From NCBI RefSeq assembly GCF_007753095.1, contig NZ_CP036348.1:5247411-5311410 (forward strand): a DNA stretch of 64,000 nucleotides. The letters are read 5' to 3'. The notes under the pieces were generated by a model. That model had not been told where the DNA came from. It was given only the letters and a program-made list of their open reading frames with translations, and did not search any database. The translations under genes were made by a program, and so were the position numbers. Within the stretch, counting starts at the first letter, position 1. Every line of letters starts with the position of its first letter. The DNA is from Rosistilla carotiformis. Its GTDB lineage: Bacteria > Planctomycetota > Planctomycetia > Pirellulales > Pirellulaceae. Shown here one piece after another: positions 36,569 through 42,635 of this stretch.

Positions 36569-37654
36569 ATGAAATCCCTCCTCGCCATCGCGATGGCTGT
36601 CGTCGCCGCCGCGACCTCCGCACGCGCCGACGATTCCCCCACGGCGCCCGCCGACGATTTGGTCCCCCGTTATTTTTTGGCCATGGTCCATGCTCCCGAG
36701 GTCCATGCCGAACTGGAGCTCTCCGAAGCGCAGATCGCAGATTTGGAAAACGTCTTCCAAAGTGTCGATTCGACTTGGTTTCAATCGCGTCTGCTGCCTG
36801 CCGACCAACAGAACAAGATCATCGATCAGACCGAGCTACCGGTTCGCAAGTGGTTCGCCGACAACACATCTGCGAAACAACAGCAACGACTGAAGCAACT
36901 GGAATGTTATTCGCAAGGCGTGCGGATGCTGTTGACCGATGAGATGGCGACGCAGTTGGATATCGATCGCGGCCAACAAACCAAGCTGATCGCGTTGGCA
37001 AAGACCTGTCGCGATCTGGAACAACGCCTTCAGAAGGCGGCCGCCGCCAAACAGCCGACCGACGAACTGACCGAGAAATTGCAAAAGGCAGTCGCCGCGG
37101 AACGCGAGGGCTACAAACAGGTGCTCAAGCCACAGCAGATCCAAAAACTGGGGCAGGTTTTGGGAGAGCCCTTCGACACCGGCCAGCTGAAGCGGACCTA
37201 TCCGATGGCTCCCGAATTCGTCGCCGTCGAACACTGGATCAATTCGCCGCCGCTGCAGATCCGCGAGCTGAAAGGGAAGGTGGTGCTGGTTCATTTTTAT
37301 GCGTTCCAGTGTTACAACTGCCACGCCAACTTTGCTCATTACCAACGCTGGCATCGCGAACTGCGCGACAAGGGCGTCGTCGTGGTCGGTATCCAAACGC
37401 CGGAGACCTCGCGGGAACGCGATCCCCGGGCGGTGCAGGCCGCGGCGGTCGAGCGTCATCTGGAGTTTCCGATCCTTGTCGACCTGGGTTCGCAAAATTG
37501 GCGTGCCTGGGGAAACACGATGTGGCCAACCGTCTACGTCGTCGACAAACAGGGGTACATCCGACACTGGTGGCAAGGTGAATTGAATTGGCAAGGGGCG
37601 ACCGGGGACAAGACGATCGAGGACCTGGTCGAACAATTGCTTCAAGAAGGCTAA
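36569..37654 (+). CDS. Secreted thioredoxin-like (TlpA/redoxin) protein
   Basis: 361 residues with a signal peptide (KSLLAIAMAVVAAATSARAD). Residues about 30-200 are helical and Gln-rich (KQQQRLKQLECYSQGVRMLL). The thioredoxin-like domain (about 225-355) contains VVLVHFYAFQCYNCHANFAH, a GVVVVGIQTPET block, and the cis-Pro loop MWPTVYVVDKQG. The active site is Cys-Tyr-Asn-Cys-His. This fits TlpA/DipZ-like periplasmic redox proteins, but CYNCH is also a c-type heme motif. Confidence 0.82.
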   Translation: MKSLLAIAMAVVAAATSARADDSPTAPADDLVPRYFLAMVHAPEVHAELELSEAQIADLENVFQSVDSTWFQSRLLPADQQNKIIDQTELPVRKWFADNTSAKQQQRLKQLECYSQGVRMLLTDEMATQLDIDRGQQTKLIALAKTCRDLEQRLQKAAAAKQPTDELTEKLQKAVAAEREGYKQVLKPQQIQKLGQVLGEPFDTGQLKRTYPMAPEFVAVEHWINSPPLQIRELKGKVVLVHFYAFQCYNCHANFAHYQRWHRELRDKGVVVVGIQTPETSRERDPRAVQAAAVERHLEFPILVDLGSQNWRAWGNTMWPTVYVVDKQGYIRHWWQGELNWQGATGDKTIEDLVEQLLQEG

Positions 37655-37785
37655 GCCGCACCGATCGATTGGTGACTCTGTAGAAATGGGCTCCATCGGC
37701 CATAGCCCGTTGGTGTGCGCGGTCGCTTTGTGCGACAATATGACCTCGGATCTTTCGATTTGACGTCGGTCAGCGAGCCACAGTT

Positions 37786-38394
37786 TTGTCCCAATCCACC
37801 ACTCAATTTCTGCTCGACCGCGCCCGCGAAGGGGACGCCGACGCTTTTGGCGAGCTGCTGGAACAGTATCGCAGCTATCTGTGGATTCTAGCGCATCGCT
37901 ATCTCGACGATCGGTTGCGGCAACGGATCGATCCGGCCGATCTGGTTCAGATCACGTTCATGGAAGCCCAACGCGACCTTCCCGCGTTTCGAGGCCAGGA
38001 ACCGGCGGCGTTTGTCGTTTGGATCCGCAACATCTTGCGGAACAACCTCGCGTCGGCGGTCGCTCGGCACGTGATCACTCAAAAACGCTCGGTCGCTCAC
38101 GAAGTTCGGCTGGCCAACGATTCATCGCGCGGTCCGGGACTGGCGGGACAATTGGCGGGCAGCACGACCAGCCCCAGCCAACAGATCATGCGGGCGGAGA
38201 CTTCGCAGGCGCTGTTGGACGCGTTGGATCAATTGCCCGAGATGCAGGCGGCGGCGATCAAGCTGCGTTATATGGAGGGGCTGAACATGAAAGAGATCAG
38301 CGAAGCCGTCGGGAAGACCGAGATGGCTGTCGGCGGACTGTTGAAGCGAGGGCTGAAACGGCTGCGGGAAATTCTGTTGGACGAGAGCCAATAG
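37786..38394 (+). CDS. ECF-type RNA polymerase sigma factor (planctomycete type)
   Basis: 202 residues from a TTG start. Sigma region 2 spans about residues 15-85 (FGELLEQYRSYLWILAHRYL, DPADLVQITFMEAQRDL), and region 4 about 140-195 (ALDQLPEMQAAAIKLRYMEG, MKEISEAVGKTEMAVGGLLK). The kinase gene starts 62 bp downstream. In planctomycetes such sigma factors are commonly paired with Ser/Thr kinases, so the kinase probably controls it by phosphorylation or binding. Confidence 0.88.
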   Translation: MSQSTTQFLLDRAREGDADAFGELLEQYRSYLWILAHRYLDDRLRQRIDPADLVQITFMEAQRDLPAFRGQEPAAFVVWIRNILRNNLASAVARHVITQKRSVAHEVRLANDSSRGPGLAGQLAGSTTSPSQQIMRAETSQALLDALDQLPEMQAAAIKLRYMEGLNMKEISEAVGKTEMAVGGLLKRGLKRLREILLDESQ

Positions 38395-38456
38395 TCTGGT
38401 CCACAATACGAACACTTAAATGAAGCAATTCGTGAATTGAGAGCGGTAAAACGGGG

Positions 38457-40619
38457 ATGCCTGATCCAACAAGTTCCAATCAACCGGAGGAGTCCGATCT
38501 TCCCGATCCGATCGACGAGGCGTTTGTCGCGTATTTAAAAGCGCGCGATGCGGGTGGATCGGACAGCCGCGCCGACTTCATCGAACGATTCCCCGAACTG
38601 AAGTCGCAGCTCTCCGAACTTCTCGACGCCGCCGATCTGATCGAACAACTGGCGGGCTCCAACGGTGCGACTGAAAAGGCCGATCCCGCGGCTGATACGC
38701 GGGCGGGCGTGCGGATCGACAGCATCGGCGACGATCTCGAAGCCACGCTAGCGATCACGCCGGTCCCAGGAGAGGGCGCCGGTCCGCAGTTGCCCTTTGA
38801 AATGGGGGACTACGTTCTGGAGAGCGTTCTCGGACGCGGCGGCATGGGAGTCGTCTACCTTGGTCACCAGAAGAATCTCGATCGGCCGGTCGCCGTGAAG
38901 ATGATTCGGTCGGGCGTGCTGGCCGGCCGCGATGAGATCAAGCGTTTCTGTTCCGAAGCCAAAGCGGCGGCGAAGTTGAAGCATCCCAATATTGTTGCGG
39001 TGCATCATTTTGGTCTCGAGGCGGGGCACTACTATTTTTCGATGGACTACGTCGAAGGCTTCGATCTTTCGAAGAAGGTCGACGACGGACCTCAGGACTG
39101 TCGCGAGGCAGCGCGGTATGTCCGCGATGTCGCCGCGGCGATTCACCATGCCCACCAACGGGGCTTGCTGCATCGCGATCTGAAGCCGGGCAACGTCTTG
39201 ATCGATGCATGCGACCAAGTCCACGTGACCGATTTTGGATTGGCCAAACATGTCGATGCCGAGAGCAGTCTGACGAACAGCGGCGCCGCGATCGGAACGC
39301 CGAATTACATGGCTCCCGAACAGGCCAGCGGCGACCACGAAGCGACCTGCCCACAATCGGATGTCTACTCGCTGGGGGCGATCCTATTCGCCTTGATCAC
39401 CGGTCGGCCGCCGTTTGTCACCGATTCGGTGATGCAGACATTGATGCAGGTGATCCATCGGCCAGCGCCGGCGCTCCGATCGTTCTGCGATGCGCCGGCA
39501 GATCTCGAAACGATCGTCGAGAAGTGTTTGCAGAAAGAGCCGCAGCAGCGTTACGCGACGGCCGAAGCGTTGGCGGATGATCTGGATCGTTTTTTGAATG
39601 GCCAGCCGATTAGGGCTCGCCCGCGCACGCCGCTGCAACGCGGGCTCGATTGGCTGTCGGAAGTGCCGATCTTCGCTGCGCTGATCGGACGCCGGTTAAT
39701 GCATACGTCCGACAGCCATCGGCGCTTTCAATCGATGATGTTGTTGCTGGTCTTATCGCTGCCGATGATCCTGGCCGCCGTTTTGTTTGGCGCTCGAATG
39801 CTGCACGACCGCTTGCCATCGGAGCCGAAGATCGCGGGAGGCCCGACCGGGGATGTCTATGCCCATGTCGCCGGTGAGCTGGCCAACCGGTTGCAACAAG
39901 CGGTTGATCGTCCCGTCGAAGCGTTGACGACCGAGGGATCGGTTGACAATCTAAAACGTTTGCTGGCCGGCGACGTCGACCTGGCGATCTTGCAAGCCAG
40001 CGCCGTCCGTGGCGAACAGGTGAGCGTGATTGCACCACTGTATTATGAGGCCCTGCATCTGATCGCGCGCAGCAATCTGGAAATTAAGAAGCTTTCACAG
40101 ATCGTTGGAGAACGCGTGGCGATCGGTAGCCAGCAGAGCGGTTCGCAATTGGCGGCTCACATGCTGTTCGATTCGCTAGGGCTGGACAATGGCGAGGTTG
40201 AATTTGTCTACCAACCGTTCCAGCAGTCACGGCTGGACGAAACGATTCCCATCTCGATCGTCTGCGTTGCCCGAGGTAGCAAGATCGTGGCTGCCGCGTT
40301 GCAGAGTAAGCAGTTCCGGCTGCTGGCGGTGGACGATCCACTCAATATCTCGTTGGACCATCCAACGCTGCGGCCGTTGCAGATCTTGCCGACCGATTAT
40401 CCGGCGGCGGACCTGCCCGAGGACGGGATCGCGACCGTTGGCACCACCGCGTTTCTGGCGACCCGTCGCAACGCGCCGTCGGTGCTGGTAACCGCAACGC
40501 TCGAAGCACTCTATCGGAACGAAATCTCCGTGCCGCGAATGATCACACGTCAACAAGCCGCAGAATGGCAAGGCTTGGCCCTACATCCTGCGGCTCGCGC
40601 GTTTTACGAATCGGAGTGA
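38457..40619 (+). CDS. Ser/Thr protein kinase with a TAXI-type solute-receptor sensor domain
   Basis: 720 residues. The N-terminal 60 residues (AFVAYLKARDAGGSDSRADF, FPELKSQLSELL) are of the kind found in sigma-factor-linked planctomycete kinases. The kinase domain (about 118-380) is complete: GRGGMGVVYLG, VAVKMIRSG, LHRDLKPGNVLI, VTDFGLAKHV and GTPNYMAPEQAS. One transmembrane helix lies near 425-446. The C-terminal about 260 residues outside the membrane read as a TAXI/NMT1-like solute receptor (DVYAHVAGELANRLQQAVDR, LLAGDVDLAILQASAV, VIAPLYYEALHLIARSNLEI, GSQQSGSQLAAHMLFDSLG). This makes it a likely one-component receptor kinase. It is 62 bp after the ECF sigma gene. Confidence 0.85.
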   Translation: MPDPTSSNQPEESDLPDPIDEAFVAYLKARDAGGSDSRADFIERFPELKSQLSELLDAADLIEQLAGSNGATEKADPAADTRAGVRIDSIGDDLEATLAITPVPGEGAGPQLPFEMGDYVLESVLGRGGMGVVYLGHQKNLDRPVAVKMIRSGVLAGRDEIKRFCSEAKAAAKLKHPNIVAVHHFGLEAGHYYFSMDYVEGFDLSKKVDDGPQDCREAARYVRDVAAAIHHAHQRGLLHRDLKPGNVLIDACDQVHVTDFGLAKHVDAESSLTNSGAAIGTPNYMAPEQASGDHEATCPQSDVYSLGAILFALITGRPPFVTDSVMQTLMQVIHRPAPALRSFCDAPADLETIVEKCLQKEPQQRYATAEALADDLDRFLNGQPIRARPRTPLQRGLDWLSEVPIFAALIGRRLMHTSDSHRRFQSMMLLLVLSLPMILAAVLFGARMLHDRLPSEPKIAGGPTGDVYAHVAGELANRLQQAVDRPVEALTTEGSVDNLKRLLAGDVDLAILQASAVRGEQVSVIAPLYYEALHLIARSNLEIKKLSQIVGERVAIGSQQSGSQLAAHMLFDSLGLDNGEVEFVYQPFQQSRLDETIPISIVCVARGSKIVAAALQSKQFRLLAVDDPLNISLDHPTLRPLQILPTDYPAADLPEDGIATVGTTAFLATRRNAPSVLVTATLEALYRNEISVPRMITRQQAAEWQGLALHPAARAFYESE

Positions 40620-40627
40620 GGTTCGTC

Positions 40628-42178
40628 TTAGATTCGCAAGATCGCATCGATTCCCAGCATGAACTGGTTGTCGTCGTTGCCATCGTCAAACGGTTGACGG
40701 ACGGCAGTGCCATCGAACCAATCGGCCCGCAGTTCAGGGCGAATCGTTAGGCTCTTGGAAACCGCTAGATTCAAACCGGCCGACAGGCTGTAGAAGTCGC
40801 CCACAAATGGCGGATCGTTGGGGTTACTGGATCGGTTCAAACCGACGCGTGTCCCCTCTTCGTCGCGGAACCATTCGAACCGCAACGCACCCTTCACGCA
40901 GTCGCTGAAGCTGTAGGTGAGGTATTGGTCGATTCCGTACCAATCGGCTCGGCTGCCGTCGGCGGCACCCTCTTCTTGGAAGCCCAACCAGTGATGGAAC
41001 ACGTAGTCCAAACGTTTGGTCACGGGCAACGCCATCAACCAGCTGTAACGTGTGCGGTTGGTGAAGTCGGGATTCAATGCGTTGCCAGAGAGGTTGTTGC
41101 TCGAATCGCCCGTCGTGATCGCAAACGAGGTCCACGCATTGCTCGACTGAGAATCGTAGCGGACCTTCCCGATGAAGCCGGGCTTATCGCTCTCGCGATC
41201 TAACGAATCCCAGCCGTTGTGAATTCCCAGGTTAAAGCTCAACGCGTCGGTTGGGCGGACGTTCAACTGGGCACCCCAGTGAGTGAACGGACCGGCAAAT
41301 TGGTAGCTGTAGGATTTGCTGTAGAAGAAGTTATCCGGTGCCATGACTCCTTCGTAACCGACAACCGAATAGAAGTGACCGACCTGCAGCGAGACGTCTT
41401 CGTTTCCCATCGAAACATAAGCTTGTGGCAATGCCAAGCCATAATATTCGCCGTTCCAGCGAGCCGACCCATCGTCGCGGCGTTCCAAACCGTTGGACTG
41501 AGCCAACAAGTAGTCTTCGCCGTAGAGAATATCAATGCGGCCACCGATGCCAGCGCCATCACGTGGCAGCCGTTTCTCGACGATCATGTACAGCTGGTTC
41601 AACATCCCTTCGTTGCTACGATCGACAGCGTTGTAGGGCCCGTTGAACTTGCTGTCAGGGCTCGACGTGTTTCCGATGAAGCCGGCATCGACCCAACCCG
41701 AAATGTTCCAACCGCTGTGATTTCCTCCCAGCAATCCCAGCCCGAACAGGCCGTCGGCACAGCAACTGTCGCCACCAGCACTGTCGCAAAACAGTCCCCC
41801 CTTGCCGCAGCCGGAACCCCATCCGTCGCATCCCGCACCGGAACCGCTGTTGCAGCCGGCACCGCATCCGTCGCAACCGGCGATGGAACCGCTGTTGCAG
41901 CCGGCACCGCATCCGTCGCAACCGGCGATGGAACCGCTGTTGCAGCCGGCACCGCATCCGTCGCAACCGGCGTTGGAACCGCTGTTGCAACCGGATCCAC
42001 ACCCGTCGCAATCAGAAGCGAGGCCGCTACTGCAACCGGCAGCACAACCATCACCACGAATCATTCCGGCATCGCATTCGGAACCCGAACAGCTGGCGGG
42101 GTTGCCAGCCCATAAGGCGCTGTGTTGTGTGGCAATCGCCAGGGCGATCGACAGCGCACCCAAGATACTTTTCCGCAT
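40628..42178 (-). CDS. BBP2-type outer-membrane porin with N-terminal Cys/Gly repeats
   Basis: 516 residues from ATG at 42178, which begins a signal peptide (RKSILGALSIALAIATQHSA). Residues about 30-140 contain 21 Cys in Gly/Asp/Ser-rich repeats. From residue 150 a beta-barrel of the BBP2/OmpL-like family follows: WNISGWVDAGFIGNTSS, GGRIDILYGEDYLLAQSNG, LQVGHFYSVVGYEGVMAPDN, WGAQLNVRPTDALSFNLGIH, and the terminal strand FMLGIDAILRI with the aromatic/hydrophobic end of porins. The longer upstream start (ATG 42226) would put a leader before the signal peptide. It is divergent from the Fur-hemP locus. Confidence 0.82.
   Translation of the reverse strand: MRKSILGALSIALAIATQHSALWAGNPASCSGSECDAGMIRGDGCAAGCSSGLASDCDGCGSGCNSGSNAGCDGCGAGCNSGSIAGCDGCGAGCNSGSIAGCDGCGAGCNSGSGAGCDGWGSGCGKGGLFCDSAGGDSCCADGLFGLGLLGGNHSGWNISGWVDAGFIGNTSSPDSKFNGPYNAVDRSNEGMLNQLYMIVEKRLPRDGAGIGGRIDILYGEDYLLAQSNGLERRDDGSARWNGEYYGLALPQAYVSMGNEDVSLQVGHFYSVVGYEGVMAPDNFFYSKSYSYQFAGPFTHWGAQLNVRPTDALSFNLGIHNGWDSLDRESDKPGFIGKVRYDSQSSNAWTSFAITTGDSSNNLSGNALNPDFTNRTRYSWLMALPVTKRLDYVFHHWLGFQEEGAADGSRADWYGIDQYLTYSFSDCVKGALRFEWFRDEEGTRVGLNRSSNPNDPPFVGDFYSLSAGLNLAVSKSLTIRPELRADWFDGTAVRQPFDDGNDDNQFMLGIDAILRI
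41834..42013 (-). repeat. Tandem 45-bp coding repeats encoding 15-residue Cys units
   Basis: Four units of GCDGCGAGCNSGSIA type, each 45 bp, lie in the porin gene; the middle units are almost identical at the DNA level. A shorter, degenerate unit follows toward the barrel. Recombination between units is likely to vary the copy number. Confidence 0.88.
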
Positions 42179-42635
42179 CGTTATAGTTTCCCATCCTTGG
42201 AAGAACTTACGTGAAACACTGAACACCTTTGTTATCTACAAAAGTGTATGTCTCGGAATCGTCTCGGGCTGATCCGCGGGAACACGCAATGCCTAGGCTT
42301 GGCACTAAAATTGTTAAAATGCGATCTCCCATTGCGACAATTCGGAATCAATTACCAAGTCTCCTCAACCCCACCCACCCACGCAGCCCTTTGTCCGGAA
42401 CCAGCGAATCGAACGGCGTGCATCGCTTGCCTATCCTGCCCAATAGCACCCCATCGCTTTGAAAAGCGACGGCCCGAAAACGCATTTAATGAGAATCAGT
42501 ATCATTACTGTCTTGCATGGGGCACCATTTTTCACAACAATGGCAGCGTAAATGATTTTTGAAGCCACCCGCCGCAGCGCGGTTGCGACGGTTTCTAAGA
42601 ATCGAGACTTCCCGCCGTCAATCGGACCCTACGCA
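42179..42635. other. Intergenic region between porin and hemP
   Basis: About 455 bp, AT-rich around 42300-42360 and 42480-42550. It carries the Fur box at 42488-42506. The frame upstream of hemP stays open to an ATG at 42552, but the shorter start at 42636 is preferred for hemP. Confidence 0.5.
42488..42506. promoter_or_regulatory. Probable Fur box
   Basis: AATGAGAATCAGTATCATT contains a 7-1-7 dyad (TGAGAAT C AGTATCA) that differs from the consensus at one base per half. It lies about 130 bp upstream of hemP. Iron-repressed transcription of hemP, and perhaps of the divergent porin, is likely. Confidence 0.75.

Follow-up and report, generated by a model that had tools for sequence, protein, structure and literature searches.

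A predicted TAXI-type receptor kinase encoded beside an ECF sigma factor in Rosistilla carotiformis and related Pirellulaceae

The locus described here raises the question of whether a single bacterial protein could sense a small molecule outside the cell and pass the signal, by phosphorylation, to a sigma factor encoded next to it. It lies in a 64,000-nt stretch of the Rosistilla carotiformis genome (NZ_CP036348.1, positions 5,247,411 to 5,311,410; hereafter the window, within which feature positions are given) and consists of a gene for an extracytoplasmic function (ECF) sigma factor and a gene for a kinase that continues across the membrane into a TAXI-type domain. The original prediction, made from the letters alone, had claimed an ECF sigma gene, a 62-bp gap and then one protein with complete Hanks kinase motifs, one membrane helix and an outside domain resembling TAXI receptors, and each of these elements was recovered: both open reading frames are present as described, and the main parts of the locus are as follows.

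37786..38394, + strand: ECF sigma factor gene (TIGR02984 family, 202 amino acids, TTG start)
38395..38456, + strand: intergenic gap between the sigma and kinase genes (62 bp; 100% and 95.2% identity in two congeners)
38457..40619, + strand: gene for the kinase-membrane helix-TAXI receptor (720 amino acids, ATG start)
38508..38651, + strand: N-terminal helical segment, residues 18-65 (structure model and alignment)
38811..39578, + strand: Hanks Ser/Thr kinase domain, residues 119-374 (PF00069, E 1.3e-51)
39711..39806, + strand: membrane-spanning helix, residues 419-450 (structure model)
39831..40610, + strand: predicted extracytoplasmic TAXI domain, residues 459-718 (PF16868 and structure model)

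Judged by its motifs, the 720-residue protein is a Hanks-type receptor kinase. The motif set (G-loop, Lys, Glu, HRDxxxxN, DFG, PE) is complete, and its residues are invariant in 50 aligned relatives (G126/G128/G129, K148, E167, H239-R240-D241, K243 and N246, as well as D259-F260-G261 and P287-E288). The whole-chain structure model (pLDDT, the predicted local distance difference test, 87.4; pTM, the predicted template modelling score, 0.62; residues 1-13 and 67-104 below 50) gives the order helical segment 18-65, kinase, single helix 419-450 and TAXI domain. Since this one membrane helix comes after the inside kinase, the C-terminal part is predicted to lie outside. In the N-terminal segment, D20, D31, G33, F41, P46, L52 and L55 are at least 90% conserved. 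The idea that this segment is a docking motif lost in kinases without a linked sigma gene was rejected, as linked and unlinked groups both retain it.

The outside part is predicted, from a structure model, to have the TAXI fold. PF16868 (NMT1_3) covers residues 459-718 at 76.8 bits (cut-off 27; E 2.8e-21), and the AlphaFold2 model of residues 412-720, built with 56 aligned sequences, reached a mean pLDDT of 91.9. When the fold was compared with the PDB by Foldseek, a check that the original prediction had proposed, the best seven rows were all TAXI chains, with TM-scores by target length of 0.66-0.79: ranks 1-4 were VcGluP (9ibo, 8s4j) and TtGluBP (1us4, 8u79), and the others 4ddd and both 9ibp chains. 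The first match beyond these seven was far weaker (E 8.9e-11 vs 1.3e-17), so a different fold for the outside domain was not found. Likewise, the family profile matched seven distinct PDB sequences, all of them TAXI (best 1us4, E 1.8e-37). The receptor is nevertheless not a subunit of a tripartite ATP-independent periplasmic (TRAP) transporter, because its score against TIGR02122 (TRAP_TAXI), 78.9 bits, falls just under the cut-off of 84.35 and because no TRAP permease is encoded with it; DctM is matched in the genome only at C1:4391572-4393140, about 0.85 Mb from the window (C1:5247411-5311410).

How widespread is the fusion? In the window's family the outside domain was matched in 151 of 241 genomes and, by hand count among the matches listed, at least about 109 of these 151 genomes have a TAXI match in a frame of at least 590 amino acids. 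Seventy records were read: the window, nine full-length loci from named records (among them Roseiconus, Stieleria and Rhodopirellula including R. baltica; where a named record bears a family name, it is Pirellulaceae) and 60 loci chosen from the family matches to span many genera. A TAXI frame of at least 590 amino acids was present in 61 of the 70, and all 61 contained the kinase (60 are distinct, L158 being a duplicate of L023). The rest were seven TAXI proteins without a kinase, together with a kinase fusion (L181) and a TAXI fragment (L180), both cut by contig ends. Across a phylum-wide sample the outside domain was matched in 80 of 392 genomes; among 30 loci from this sample, the kinase was found in the two that belong to the window's family and in none of the TAXI frames of the other 28, which are outside it. 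Twenty further places outside the family (frames of at least 562 amino acids) also had no kinase in frame, which gives 0 of 48 extra-family TAXI loci read in the phylum (28 + 20), and the same test found both domains in the positive control, L125. As far as loci were read, the TAXI-kinase fusion looks confined to the window's family.

Other arrangements of the TAXI domain were seen as well. At three loci outside the family (L271, L281, L283) a TAXI frame and a separate kinase frame occur in the same 5-7 kb stretch; such loci may encode the receptor in split form. Kinase-free TAXI proteins of about 430-500 amino acids (L176, L164, L239, L252, also L160, L163, L175 and L177) appear, by sequence, to be another class of TAXI receptor, one whose output part is helical; in the first four the order is membrane helix, TAXI domain, second hydrophobic stretch and a charged tail of about 110 residues, and frames of this length are common in the phylum sample. 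Tandem TAXI domains, with at least two matches in a single frame, were found outside the family in L269, L272, L273, L274, L275, L276 and L277; that of L273 (640 amino acids) covers residues 15-343 and 355-608.

All parts of the gene pair are under purifying selection. Against two congeners (L125, L126), the sigma protein is 100% identical, with a nonsynonymous divergence (dN) of 0, and the ratio of dN to synonymous divergence (dS) is 0.03-0.04 for the kinase domain and 0.10-0.12 for the TAXI domain, every part of the kinase protein falling within 0.03-0.12. This selection, together with the presence of the kinase in every one of the 61 long TAXI frames (590 amino acids or more), confirms that the sigma and TAXI-kinase gene pair is real and excludes chance. 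In the same comparisons dS was 0.18-0.22 for the sigma, 0.33-0.47 for the kinase domain and 0.51-0.65 for the N-terminal part, and jumped to 0.88-0.94 in the TAXI part (window 39807-40616). This jump may mean that the sensor half has been exchanged between lineages by recombination.

The sigma factor is matched by TIGR02984 (Sig-70_plancto1), a planctomycete-specific sigma subfamily, at 196.5 bits, above the curated cut-off of 183.75. Linkage of the two genes was judged at 58 loci, that is, the 60 distinct fusions minus L143 and L150, which lie too near a contig end. A relative of the sigma stands directly upstream of the kinase on the same strand in 42 of the 58, and the two genes therefore form an ECF-Ser/Thr kinase pair in the sense of adjoining, same-strand and conserved genes. 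R. baltica, a cultivable relative, is one of the species that carry the pair (L021). Outside the genus the upstream sigmas are 40-60% identical to that of the window; strict orthology is uncertain for those at 40-47%, which come from the most distant genera. On a maximum-likelihood tree of the kinases, rooted at the midpoint, the linkage label changes 4 times, vs 14.3 times in shuffles, the pattern expected of an old linkage with a few later losses. The sigma was detected at E <=1e-60 in 67 of the 241 family genomes; by hand comparison it adjoins a TAXI match in 53 of these and does not in 14, some of the latter being on short contigs that leave the case undecidable. Both genes are present but apart in several genomes (G006, G147, G163 and G166). 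Among 69 loci, the window's redoxin, porin and HEAT neighbours were found only in the two congeners (1.5-3 kb flanks, less at contig ends), so that the conserved unit within 1.5-3 kb is the sigma-kinase pair itself. Just upstream of the sigma start, 68 bases (37718-37785) are identical in the two congeners and are a possible promoter or leader; a sigma-70 scan of 37600-40800 found no promoter.

We then asked whether the TAXI domain keeps the cleft of its relatives. In VcGluP the ligand is contacted by Y45, S75, Q93, E125, G156 and M201, with further water-mediated contacts, and Y200 lies beside it; affinity drops 213-fold in Y45A and 990-fold in Q93A (PMC11574862). Equivalent residues were taken from profile alignments (the offset of 28 between paper and chain numbering was derived by hand), and they were counted in 57 fusion proteins, which are the 60 distinct records thinned at 95% identity.

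39858..39860, + strand: Y468, equivalent to VcGluP Y45 (Y in 57/57)
39939..39941, + strand: S495, equivalent to VcGluP S75 (S in 53/57, T in 2, A in 2)
39993..39995, + strand: Q513, equivalent to VcGluP Q93 (Q in 57/57)
40047..40049, + strand: E531, equivalent to VcGluP E125 (E in 53/57, D in 4)
40140..40142, + strand: G562, equivalent to VcGluP G156 (G in 57/57)

Among the 260 columns of the domain, Y468, Q513, G562, S495 and E531 rank 1, 3, 6, 18 and 16 by entropy. The lack of a ligand cleft, which the original prediction had named as a result that would speak against it, was thus not observed, and the receptor kinases appear to retain the predicted pocket. The sole other TAXI protein of the genome (L013, G000:C1:782861-783718) has Phe and Asn at the key Tyr and Gln positions; the DctM matches (L265/L266, G000:C1:4391572-4393140) are millions of bases away from it.

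The sigma factor was examined at the surface known as DxxDxxQE, which contacts RNA polymerase in primary sigmas and in ECFs without kinase partners (PMC13147305, PMC8999054). In EcfP and EcfK, of group ECF43, a phosphorylated Thr lies in that surface, and EcfK has in addition T106 in the linker (PMC13147305, PMC8999054). Two places stood out when 53 sigmas were aligned (41 linked and 12 unlinked, 51 of them distinct; L182 was left out, as the region is missing).

37951..37956, + strand: sigma residues I56-T57, where the acid of the core-binding motif is absent and a Thr, a candidate phosphosite, follows (alignment)
38167..38178, + strand: sigma residues 128-131 (TSPS), part of the linker that joins regions 2 and 4 and a second area of candidate phosphosites (alignment)

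Position 56 is acidic in none of the 53, and position 57 is Thr in all but two (51/53; the exceptions are one Ser and one Ala); in the linker, Ser or Thr occurs at position 128 in 52/53, at 129 in 53/53 and at 131 in 53/53. In the other distinct ECFs of the genome, D or E is found at 56 in 14/21 and Thr at 57 in 7/21 (the region could not be read in five others, and of the initial 22 one was a duplicate copy of the same gene). A further comparison used 12 sigmas lying within 3 kb of other kinases (from 71 loci, L024-L094; two are on the opposite strand, and the most distant alignments are uncertain): an acid is present at 56 in 4/12 and Thr at 57 in 2/12. Activation of the EcfP type, by a Thr in the DAED position, was rejected, since D49 and D52 are kept in 53/53 and position 51 is Ser or Thr in only 16/53. 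By sequence, then, the sigma is not an ECF43 sigma, for which an uncharged DAED and a conserved phospho-Thr would be expected. Our reading is that T57 and the TSPS linker are candidate phosphosites, T57 being unlike the site of EcfP.

Taken together, these observations lead us to consider it probable, though well short of certain, that the locus encodes a TAXI receptor kinase with a dedicated sigma, in which ligand-driven phosphorylation would switch the sigma on. The periplasmic TAXI domain would bind a small amino or organic acid between its two lobes, most likely L-glutamate or a close relative; the TAXI fold and the conserved contact residues are observations, from which we infer both that a ligand binds and what it is. 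When the lobes close, the movement would pass through the single membrane helix and, on the model of other Hanks receptor kinases, probably alter dimerisation of the kinase inside. The sigma encoded upstream would then be phosphorylated by this kinase, with Thr57, next to the missing acid, and/or the TSPS linker as the most likely sites, and the phosphorylated sigma would bind RNA polymerase; control of the kinase by the ligand and phosphorylation of the sigma are steps that we likewise infer. In its most specific form, namely a single-chain receptor kinase that responds to L-glutamate (or a near relative) outside the cell and in which phospho-Thr57 replaces the missing acid and activates the kinase's own sigma, the proposal is tentative and, taken whole, somewhat unlikely.

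Several observations weigh against this reading, and three other explanations can be considered. The receptor could quite possibly work as proposed on a different ligand, the TAXI cleft being a general carboxylate or amino-acid site that here holds another carboxylate or an amino-acid derivative. VcGluP Y200, M201, H123 and D157 are not retained in the fusion proteins, and the stretch from Q513 to E531 is about 12-14 residues shorter than in transporter TAXIs, so the ligand need not be glutamate; TAXI ligands elsewhere include alpha-ketoglutarate and orthophthalate (PMC11574862). Against such a ligand stands the invariance here of the two residues on which affinity for glutamate chiefly depends, whereas Tyr45 and Gln93 are found in 78% and 54% of the published TAXI alignment (PMC11574862). 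The same cleft residues are nearly as well kept in 36 kinase-free TAXI proteins (Y in 34, S in 35, Q in 35, E in 29 and G in 36 of 36), which indicates a working cleft, not control of a kinase, and tempers the argument that cleft conservation shows kinase sensing. It is very unlikely, in our view, that the domain is instead a protein-docking module, which would sense the occupancy of a transporter or other protein and not a free ligand. A binding protein does signal via a partner membrane protein in the GlnH-GlnX-PknG system (PMC6069109), but the cleft residues are among the conserved columns here, and the only DctM permease of the genome is distant, as noted above.

The other points concern the sigma. 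The pairing claimed by the original prediction stood across much of the family but not at 16 of the 58 loci, where the kinase has no adjoining sigma, and some genomes have one partner without the other, such as G016 (98% complete), in which the sigma is present and no TAXI match was found. Both Asp residues of DxxD are retained in 53/53 sigmas, as is Q55, and therefore core binding without phosphorylation is conceivable. Loss of the acid at 56 is shared by 8 of the 12 sigmas near other kinases, which tempers the notion that it is unique to this sigma and leaves only Thr57 as distinctive; moreover, the 12 sigmas without an adjoining TAXI kinase all show the same 56/57 pattern. No regulon signal was found in a motif search upstream of 42 sigma genes: gapped motifs were shared by at most 10 loci each (the best of mononucleotide shuffles reached 3-5, and relatedness was uncorrected), and no ECF-like AAC/CGT pair stood out. 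These gaps in linkage, the intact D49 and D52 and the lack of a conserved EcfP-type site would suit a kinase that senses its ligand and acts mainly on a target other than the adjoining sigma, the two genes being merely co-transcribed or the sigma regulating the kinase gene. We regard this as unlikely, given that both halves of the midpoint-rooted kinase tree contain linked sigmas, that within the 1.5-3 kb flanks none of the window's other neighbours recurs beyond the genus, that a sigma match exists elsewhere in several genomes where the kinase is unlinked, and that T57 and TSPS are conserved.

Two observations around the locus can be added. The genome carries at least seven further same-strand pairs of an ECF sigma and a Hanks kinase (L227, L228, L229, L233, L206, L210 and L213), several of which overlap or nearly overlap. 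Beside the receptor gene, at window positions 40628-42226 on the - strand, lies a BBP2-type porin with an N-terminal stretch of Gly/Cys/Ser-rich repeats.

Pairs of ECF sigmas and Ser/Thr kinases are known, and the predicted groups include planctomycete ones (PMC8999054). Like the ECF43 pairs EcfP-PknT of Vibrio and EcfK-PknS of Xanthomonas, the present locus has a Hanks kinase encoded beside an ECF sigma, and in the ECF43 pairs the sigma, once phosphorylated, engages RNA polymerase more readily (PMC8999054, PMC13147305). Unlike them, the locus has a TIGR02984 sigma that retains the DxxD Asp residues and is without the conserved Thr of EcfP. The sensors also differ, being TAXI here and TPR repeats in PknS. 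As a receptor kinase, PknS offers a working precedent: in cells, its autophosphorylation appears to be held back by the periplasmic part (PMC13147305). As in PASTA Hanks kinases such as PknB and PrkC, the inside kinase is joined by a membrane helix to a ligand-binding outside part, which in the PASTA kinases is of another kind and binds pieces of peptidoglycan. The fold and the main glutamate-contact residues are those of VcGluP and TtGluBP; the differences are the tether to a kinase, the lack of a nearby TRAP permease, the shorter loop after the key Gln and some changed contacts. Recruitment of TAXI domains outside TRAP transporters by gene fusion has a parallel in the TAXI-GltS fusions of Lachnospiraceae, which are proposed to serve transport, not signalling (PMC12344293).

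An Asp/Glu-binding protein has been proposed to control a Ser/Thr kinase in the GlnH-GlnX-PknG pathway (PMC6069109, PMC9769921), and Ser/Thr kinase signalling under an Asp/Glu-type substrate-binding protein is thus what the actinobacterial pathway and our locus would share. That pathway uses three separate proteins and acts on GarA/OdhI, whereas here there is one chain, with the sigma factor as its likely target. GlnH belongs to a binding-protein family that differs from TAXI. No description of a TAXI-Hanks kinase fusion was found in the open-access literature, in agreement with the original prediction that such a circuit seems little described. A survey of kinases sorts accessory domains into 105 groups, and the term 'NMT1' is absent from its main text, although its supplementary domain table may list the fusion (PMC11032199). 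The same survey gives about 20-60 Hanks kinases for the Pirellula, Bythopirellula and Saltatorellus groups and 98-140 for Gemmataceae (PMC11032199).

With ECF-kinase modules already known, the part that appears to be new is the TAXI sensor on the kinase, which comes with an unusually concrete ligand hypothesis. The stimulus of bacterial Ser/Thr kinases has been called an outstanding question (PMC6069109). Because the sensor fold has a solved glutamate complex, the contacts are conserved and the target has named candidate sites, signal, kinase and output could each be tested with purified components. If the specific glutamate-Thr57 proposal were true, the locus would parallel the three-protein GlnH-GlnX-PknG pathway in fused form and with a link to transcription, and it would add a second chemistry of sigma activation alongside that of EcfP. 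More generally, the pair suggests a compact bacterial receptor that would sense a small nutrient and turn genes on.

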